NCBI GenBank assembly: GCA_944324475.1
Contig: CALUWK010000005.1
Location: forward strand, 1 to 64,000
Source of the DNA: Candidatus Gastranaerophilales bacterium
Lineage (GTDB): Bacteria; Cyanobacteriota; Vampirovibrionia; Gastranaerophilales; Gastranaerophilaceae
Reading direction: 5' to 3'
DNA length: 64,000 nucleotides
Shown: one piece after another, positions 7,938-9,239 of the stretch
Numbering within the stretch: the first letter of the stretch is position 1
How the letters are laid out: every line of letters starts with the position of its first letter
Position numbers and translations under genes: made by a program
The notes under the pieces: model-generated
What the model was told of the DNA's origin: nothing
What the model saw: only the letters and a program-made list of their open reading frames with translations
The model's database searches: none

Positions 7938-8561
7938 ATGAAAAATAATTTATCACAACGAGCCATAGTTCGTTTAACTCAATATCATACAATTTTAAGA
8001 GATTATAGTAAGAAAAAAATTGAAAATATTACTTCTTCTCAAATATCAAAATTACTTGAAATTGATGAAACTTTGGTCAGAAAAGATATTAAAAACATAA
8101 ATTGTAAAGGTAAATGTAAGGTCGGCTACAGTGTATTTGAATTAAAATATATAATTGAATCTGTACTTGATTGCAATATAACAAAAAAAGCTTATATAAT
8201 AGGTGCTGGAAATTTAGGTATTGCACTTGCAAAATATTCAAAATTTAACGATTTTGGGCTGGAAATAAGTGCCTTATTTGATATTGATAAGCATAAAATT
8301 GGACAAAAAGTCGATAATAAACCAATTTATGATTTAAATACAATAAAAAAACATATTCAAAGTACAAATATTAATATAGCAATCTTAACTACACCAAATA
8401 AAGTTGCACAAGAAGTTACTAATTTTTTGGTTGAATCGGGAATAAAATATATATGGAATTTTGCTCCTACAATTTTAACTGTGCCAGAAGGTATCCACGT
8501 TTGGCATGAAAATTTGATAGGAAGTTTTTTACAATTTTGTACAATAGAAAATATTTCTTAA
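7938..8561 (+). CDS. rex: redox-sensing transcriptional repressor Rex
   Basis: DNA-binding repressor released by a high NADH/NAD+ ratio. 207 residues, the normal size. The N-terminal winged helix (about 1-80) has SQRAIVRLTQYHTIL, then SSQISKLLEIDETLVRKDI as recognition region. The Rossmann domain has IIGAGNLGIALAKY (GxGxxG) near 93-106 and LFDIDKHKIGQ. The C-terminal swapped helix includes the HENLIGSFLQFC end. Its position after adhE fits regulation of fermentation. I found no convincing Rex operator near adhE. The ATG lacks a clear Shine-Dalgarno. Confidence 0.93.
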   Translation: MKNNLSQRAIVRLTQYHTILRDYSKKKIENITSSQISKLLEIDETLVRKDIKNINCKGKCKVGYSVFELKYIIESVLDCNITKKAYIIGAGNLGIALAKYSKFNDFGLEISALFDIDKHKIGQKVDNKPIYDLNTIKKHIQSTNINIAILTTPNKVAQEVTNFLVESGIKYIWNFAPTILTVPEGIHVWHENLIGSFLQFCTIENIS

Positions 8562-8597
8562 TTTTTTAACTTAATTAAAATTTTTTTTAAAAAACTA

Positions 8598-8625
8598 TTG
8601 CAAAAAAATTATTTTCATATAAAAT
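8598..8625 (+). promoter_or_regulatory. promoter of candidate small RNA
   Basis: TTGCAA (8598-8603), 16-bp spacer, TAAAAT (8620-8625). The spacing matches the adhE and rpmE promoters in this window. Predicted transcription start is near 8632. Confidence 0.5.
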
Positions 8626-8631
8626 AGATAA

Positions 8632-8745
8632 TGCGCCCTAAATATGGGTTAAAAAAAAACCGAATTTGATGACATATCAAAAACGGTTATATAATGAGTC
8701 TTGTATCGTTAGTAAATCTTGAAGCCCTAATAGGGCTTTTTTTTA
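8632..8745 (+). ncRNA. candidate small RNA of about 113 nt between rex and the rhodanese gene
   Basis: Bounded by a plausible promoter and a strong terminator with no gene between. Inside is a defined hairpin at 8658-8688: outer stem AACCG/CGGTT, a symmetric AA/AA internal loop, inner stem TTTGAT/ATCAAA, and loop GACAT. I could not match it to 6S, SRP, tmRNA or a riboswitch class. No plus-strand gene follows, so a cis leader is unlikely. Alternative: an ATG at 8631 opens a 12-codon frame (MRPKYGLKKNRI) almost at the predicted start, so a leaderless micropeptide is possible. Confidence 0.5.
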
Positions 8746-8748
8746 TTT
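8722..8748 (+). terminator. intrinsic terminator of candidate small RNA
   Basis: Stem AAGCCCT / AGGGCTT with loop AAT, followed by a long T-run. It lies 160 bp after rex, with a promoter-like sequence between, so it probably ends the small RNA and perhaps rex readthrough. Confidence 0.85.
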
Positions 8749-8846: not shown

Positions 8847-9239
8847 CTACTCATTAGCAGATGTTTTTATAATATCATAATCCATTTTTTTCCAAGCACG
8901 ATAGCCTCCTTGCAATACTTTTGTCGGAAAACCGTTTTCTACAGCCTTATATGCAGCTTTATACCCCAGTTTACAATTATAATCATAACAATAAATTATA
9001 TTTATTTTATTTTTTTCTAACATAACTAAATGTTCATCCATTGACTCATAAGGAATATGAATAGCATAAGGTATATGTCCATCAATATAATCATCGTATT
9101 TTCTAACATCAATAATATTGATATTTTCTATGTCATTTTCAATTAAATTTTTTAATTCGTAAATACTTGCAATGAAAGATATTTGTTCTAAGAAAAATTC
9201 TTTTGCTTTGTGCAAATCTTTGGTTAAATTTTCACTCAT
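8847..9239 (-). CDS. rhodanese-domain protein
   Basis: A 130-residue single rhodanese domain with a helical N-terminal extension of about 30 residues. Motifs are NIIDVRKYDDYIDGHIPYAI and an active-site loop beginning at C84 (YCYDYNCKLG), followed by LQGGYRAWKKMDYDI at the C-terminus. C84 would carry a persulfide. The loop lacks the usual arginine and has a second cysteine (C89), unusual for a classical sulfurtransferase. AAGGA precedes the ATG. The upstream region has two copies or near-copies of a motif that also lies before the FAD oxidoreductase gene, suggesting shared control. Confidence 0.85.
   Translation of the reverse strand: MSENLTKDLHKAKEFFLEQISFIASIYELKNLIENDIENINIIDVRKYDDYIDGHIPYAIHIPYESMDEHLVMLEKNKINIIYCYDYNCKLGYKAAYKAVENGFPTKVLQGGYRAWKKMDYDIIKTSANE

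Follow-up and report, generated by a model that had tools for sequence, protein, structure and literature searches.

A predicted small-RNA family with an invariant 21-nt core in a genus of gut Gastranaerophilales

RESULTS

A predicted small-RNA gene between rex and a rhodanese-domain gene

We analyzed a 64,000-nucleotide stretch of the genome of a Candidatus Gastranaerophilales bacterium (contig CALUWK010000005.1, positions 1 to 64,000), referred to here as the window. An initial annotation, made from the sequence of the window alone, had placed a candidate 113-nt noncoding RNA between two convergent genes, with a promoter pair separated by a 16-bp spacer and a strong terminator. Reading both strands of the locus, we found all of these parts at the coordinates given (Table 1). 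The promoter pair has the 16-bp spacer and is conserved in relatives, the stem of the terminator covaries, the neighboring genes rex and a rhodanese-domain gene do converge, and a start at ~8633 gives an RNA of ~112 nt, in close agreement with the length first proposed. Folding predicted at least three stem-loops in the RNA, and for this single sequence the fold was more stable than chance (z = -3.5). The initial annotation overlooked the 21-nt core, which is the strongest feature of the element.

Table 1. Features of the predicted small-RNA locus in the window and duplicated loci in related genomes
Feature	Position	Strand	Basis or remark
-35 box TTGCAA	8598-8603	+	Seen in the sequence; pattern recurs across the genus
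-10 box TAAAAT (TANNAT in relatives), conserved AGATAATGCRCC next	8620-8625	+	Family alignment
Predicted small RNA, ~112 nt	8633-8744	+	Ends deduced from promoter (5') and terminator (3')
Hairpin 1 (5'), variable sequence, re-formed in most relatives	8635-8649	+	Folding versus shuffles
Hairpin 2: stem of 5 bp, 2x2 internal loop, then an upper stem of 5 bp or more	8658-8688	+	Covariation
Invariant single-stranded core CTTGTATCGTTAGTAAATCTT (= CUUGUAUCGUUAGUAAAUCUU), proposed functional surface	8700-8720	+	No variation in 28/28 genus genomes
Intrinsic terminator GAAGCCC-UAAUA-GGGCUUU plus U run	8721-8744	+	Stem covariation; stem 8721-8739, U run 8737-8744
rex	7938-8561	+	Pfam Put_DNA-bind_N and CoA_binding
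Rhodanese-domain gene, convergent with rex	8847-9239	-	RNA gene lies in the gap between the two
Two copies and intervening gene, G017	L091 2887-5114		
Two copies and intervening gene, G015	L092 3033-4901		
Two copies and intervening gene, G005	L098 5635-7399		

In the genomes searched, the element was found in a single genus

The element is present in each of the 28 species examined in one Gastranaerophilales genus (28 of 28 genomes, the window included). A search of 58 related genomes found it in the 27 other members of the genus and gave no clear match outside it. We built a covariance model (R1) from 15 members; it recovers the sampled genus members and matches positions 8632 to 8746 of the window at 133.5 bits, the window sequence itself being part of the model. 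Among 241 genomes of the order, searched with stricter Infernal filters that could miss weak distant homologs, the model found no convincing homolog outside the genus. The weak outside matches that we inspected were ordinary terminator hairpins lacking the core.

An exact search of the GTDB genome collection with the 21-nt core gave 27 stretches, all from Gastranaerophilales-type gut metagenome-assembled genomes (MAGs), with records titled as Candidatus Gastranaerophilales or Cyanobacteria gut MAGs or as "uncultured bacterium" MAGs (e.g., RUG14156 and RUG14173). Viral contigs contained no copy. When at most two mismatches were allowed in 192 genomes of the order, matches from outside the genus occurred at approximately the rate of a reversed-pattern control, and the three that we checked (G146, G083, and G154) read as coding sequence. 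Comparison of the window with Rfam, at the gathering thresholds and at relaxed ones, gave no credible match (the best subthreshold match scored 19 bits against a cutoff of 50), in line with the earlier remark that the RNA belongs to no recognizable class. As far as these searches reach, the predicted small-RNA family appears to be confined to this genus.

Promoter, hairpins, and terminator are conserved across the genus

In the family alignment, the parts stand in the order promoter, AGATAATGCRCC, hairpin 1, A-rich linker, hairpin 2, ~11 nt, core CUUGUAUCGUUAGUAAAUCUU, and terminator. The window alone is AT rich and contains 12 promoter sites of the relevant type versus 11.6 expected, which is not above chance. 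The pattern TTG(N3)-16/17-TANNNT, however, was found upstream of the core in 26 of the 28 genus members, with 3.1 expected from shuffles, and the consensus promoter of the family is TTGCAA-16-TANNAT. Thus, although such a promoter is at chance level in a single sequence, its conservation across relatives led us to take it as real. A loose TTAAGNAAANTTAA/TTAAGNAAAGTTAA-like element ~20 to 35 nt upstream of the -35 box also occurs in part of the family (window 8550-8597 and relatives); its occurrence in the window is not above chance. The TTAAGNAAAGTTAA-like upstream element may be an activator site.

Hairpin 1 folded better than all but 5% of shuffles in 16 of the 20 members tested (median fraction, 0.008), and it re-forms from differing sequences with compensating changes. 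For hairpin 2 and the terminator together, 91% of cells were paired and 13 cells were changed on both sides; none of 500 shuffles scored as high, and every slid control was much worse. Because the shuffle control leaves relatedness in, the slid control and hairpin 1 provide the stronger evidence. Compensatory changes in relatives were the support that the initial annotation had sought for its small RNA. With these changes, the presence of the element in every genus genome, and the lack of an Rfam match at the gathering cutoff, the comparative data indicate that the window element is a small-RNA gene, representing a new family of a known kind.

The initial annotation had also described a hairpin with a symmetric AA/AA internal loop. 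We recovered this hairpin at exactly 8658-8688 (AACCG-AA-UUUGAUG...UAUCAAA-AA-CGGUU), but the AA/AA identity was not conserved. A 2x2 internal loop is kept in 20 of the 28 genomes; nearly all members have AA on its 5' side, and the 3' side reads AA, GC, AC, or GA. Since the 3' side varies, the loop is conserved as a shape. From the end of hairpin 2 to the core, the distance is a nearly fixed 11 nt in most members. In one genome (G008; L017 1399-1601), an insert of some tens of bases lies between the 5' part and hairpin 2, and both ends of the RNA are otherwise conserved.

The core is invariant and predicted to be exposed

Across the 28 genomes the core does not vary (for 27, in the locus taken first; for G017, in its intact copy). 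In the adjoining response-regulator gene, by comparison, mean third-position identity between species is 0.54, and none of the 39 shared fourfold-degenerate sites is invariant. With the silent sites next to it saturated, the lack of any change in the core across the genus speaks for strong selection. Because the core has stayed unchanged while its surroundings vary, the RNA is probably a regulator. In the predicted fold, the core lies exposed between the two 5' hairpins on one side and the terminator stem on the other; it is predicted to be largely unpaired in most promoter-bearing copies (~0.6 to 0.8, versus an average of ~0.45 for the RNA).

DISCUSSION

The element has the general features of trans-acting small RNAs: it is an independent intergenic gene with promoter and terminator signals, a conserved structure, an exposed stretch, and no coding character. 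A comparable design is known from photosynthetic cyanobacteria, in which Yfr1, an RNA of 54 to 69 nt with two stem-loops and the 11-nt motif ACUCCUCACAC in an unpaired region, is laid out as a stem-loop, an ultraconserved unpaired stretch, and a GC-rich terminator hairpin with a U tail (PMC2190773). The window RNA shares with Yfr1 the order of stem-loop, ultraconserved single strand, and terminator, a mostly conserved genomic position, and, in a broad sense, the phylum. It differs in its length of ~112 nt, its additional internal-loop hairpin, its one-genus range, and its unrelated 21-nt core; the Yfr1 undecanucleotide is absent from the window RNA, where CUUGUAUCGUUAGUAAAUCUU forms the core. 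Because it has neither the motif nor the size of Yfr1, we regard the RNA as Yfr1-like in design and not as a Yfr1.

Two other groups offer parallels. Enterobacterial Hfq-dependent trans-acting small RNAs have their own promoter, a conserved single-stranded core near the 3' end, and an intrinsic terminator with a long U run. The window RNA is predicted to resemble them in promoter, core position, and terminator, but differs in that Hfq had no match in the 28 genus genomes, in a search that detected its positive controls. A search for KH-domain proteins (KhpA/B) gave only matches below the cutoff. Sponges of the CsrB/CsrC type display multiple GGA motifs in the loops of their hairpins. We found CsrA in 25 of the 28 genomes, but positions 8633 to 8744 contain no GGA motif, which excludes a CsrB-type CsrA sponge.

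We consider it probable that the locus encodes an independent, trans-acting regulatory RNA of ~112 nt that pairs through its core in a Yfr1-like manner. In this model, the sigma-70-type promoter of the element would drive a stand-alone RNA gene, and the intrinsic terminator would end the transcript. Hairpins 1 and 2, together with the terminator stem, would present the core as an open strand. The core would then be the contact surface of an RNA acting in trans, with parts of it pairing with several mRNAs and altering their translation or stability. Pairing would proceed without Hfq, for which the genus genomes gave no match.

Our target searches used patterns and duplexes, with energy scoring on less than the whole genome, and short seeds of 7 to 9 nt would escape them. 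The complement of the central 13 nt of the core had only one occurrence outside the RNA genes in the 28 genomes. The full-length, wobble-tolerant complements that we examined were inside coding sequence or were not shared genus-wide near start codons, and genome-wide complementary patterns gave shared matches that lay mostly in the coding sequence of conserved genes and not in start regions. Across the 5' regions of 52 window genes, pairing energies of the core differed little from those of shuffled cores. Among the neighboring genes, the rhodanese gene paired at -10.2 kcal/mol versus -8.5 kcal/mol for shuffled cores, which is not clearly better, and the 5' regions of the response-regulator gene and rex paired no better than with shuffled cores; adhE sequences were too few for this comparison.

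We place pairing with several mRNAs through short seeds first and protein binding second. Because the core is longer than one seed requires, it could also be a sequence-specific site for a chaperone, an RNase, or a regulator, with the RNA serving as a sponge, scaffold, or guide. Its 21 invariant nucleotides exceed a typical pairing seed, a conserved complementary target was not found in the searches made, and its nearly fixed spacing from hairpin 2 would fit a protein site. However, the widespread CsrA would lack its motif in this RNA, and the genome of the window holds no further complete copy of the sequence. Binding of a protein is, on balance, unlikely to be the main role of the core. It is more doubtful again that a lineage-specific RNA-binding protein recognizes the core, which would make the RNA central to a post-transcriptional system special to these bacteria, for which the Hfq search was negative.

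The genomic neighborhood bears on two further proposals. Genes for a response regulator, an FAD oxidoreductase, and MnmE are constant on one flank of the RNA, and the opposite flank is variable, with adhE-rex in most genomes. Large proteins of unknown family with D-x-D/N-x-D-G-type, calcium-binding-like repeats adjoin the RNA in some genomes (L096 6133-7032 and L091 5288-6754). Proximity to adhE and rex had earlier been taken to suggest a redox link. Four genomes keep the RNA without an adjoining rex: in G005, adhE is present and rex is not beside the RNA, and in G007, G013, and G014, neither gene occurs in the 11 to 14 kb read. Conversely, 49 of 60 family genomes carry rex; three of these belong to the genus, and more than 40 rex-bearing genomes belong to other genera, so that rex is widespread without the RNA. 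With the RNA persisting without a neighboring rex and rex occurring elsewhere without the RNA, the redox link is unsupported.

The same genomes weigh on the idea that an adhE-rex transcript ends in this element, as its 3' untranslated region and terminator, with possible processing to a stable fragment. The element follows rex immediately in the same orientation (rex ends at 8561, and the promoter starts at 8598) and has a strong terminator, which would suit such an origin. Nevertheless, the conserved promoter in 26 of the 28 genomes, the four genomes just described, and the ~1.8 to 1.9 kb that separate rex from the RNA in L064 and L066 make this origin improbable.

Extra copies of the element were found in several genomes. 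A second core copy lies ~1.75 to 1.85 kb from the first in G005, G015, and G017, and between the two is a gene for a glycosyltransferase-like membrane protein of ~550 amino acids, which is absent at the corresponding place in the window. The degenerate copy is the one on the rhodanese side. In G006, the RNA is duplicated in tandem (L014 1300-1700; L094 3731-3914), and the second copy has no promoter, one core change, and a weak terminator. Extra copies that are promoterless or terminator poor (G006, G015, G005, and one of the two in G017) carry core mutations, in accord with selection for an intact gene, and the second copies look like duplications that later decayed. Two direct copies flanking a gene could alternatively mark a DNA site for recombination, attachment, or regulator binding. 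This is highly improbable given that the RNA stems covary, that promoter, hairpins, and terminator retain a fixed order on a single strand, that viral contigs have no match, and that the second copies are degenerate.

A conserved leader peptide (ATG AGT CTT GTA TCG TTA GTA AAT CTT ...) is hardly credible, since the ATG-led frame MSLVSLVNL that crosses the core in many members lacks its ATG in many others (e.g., L015, L018, L019, and L021 to L028), where the frame enters the terminator and stops at differing positions, and zero synonymous substitutions were seen in the core. No start codon is conserved, and none of the frames of the core shows a synonymous change; by its sequence, the RNA is noncoding.

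Among the top-listed papers of a search covering part of the open-access literature, we found no study of the small RNAs of non-photosynthetic gut cyanobacteria. The present analysis adds a well-supported predicted small-RNA family to these bacteria. Its core is a definite probe of small-RNA use in bacteria without detectable Hfq, and the core, hairpins, and covariance model are directly usable for transcript searches in gut metatranscriptomes. If the core should prove to be the site of a lineage-specific RNA-binding protein, this RNA would be the central RNA of a lineage-specific post-transcriptional system and not an ordinary antisense small RNA.
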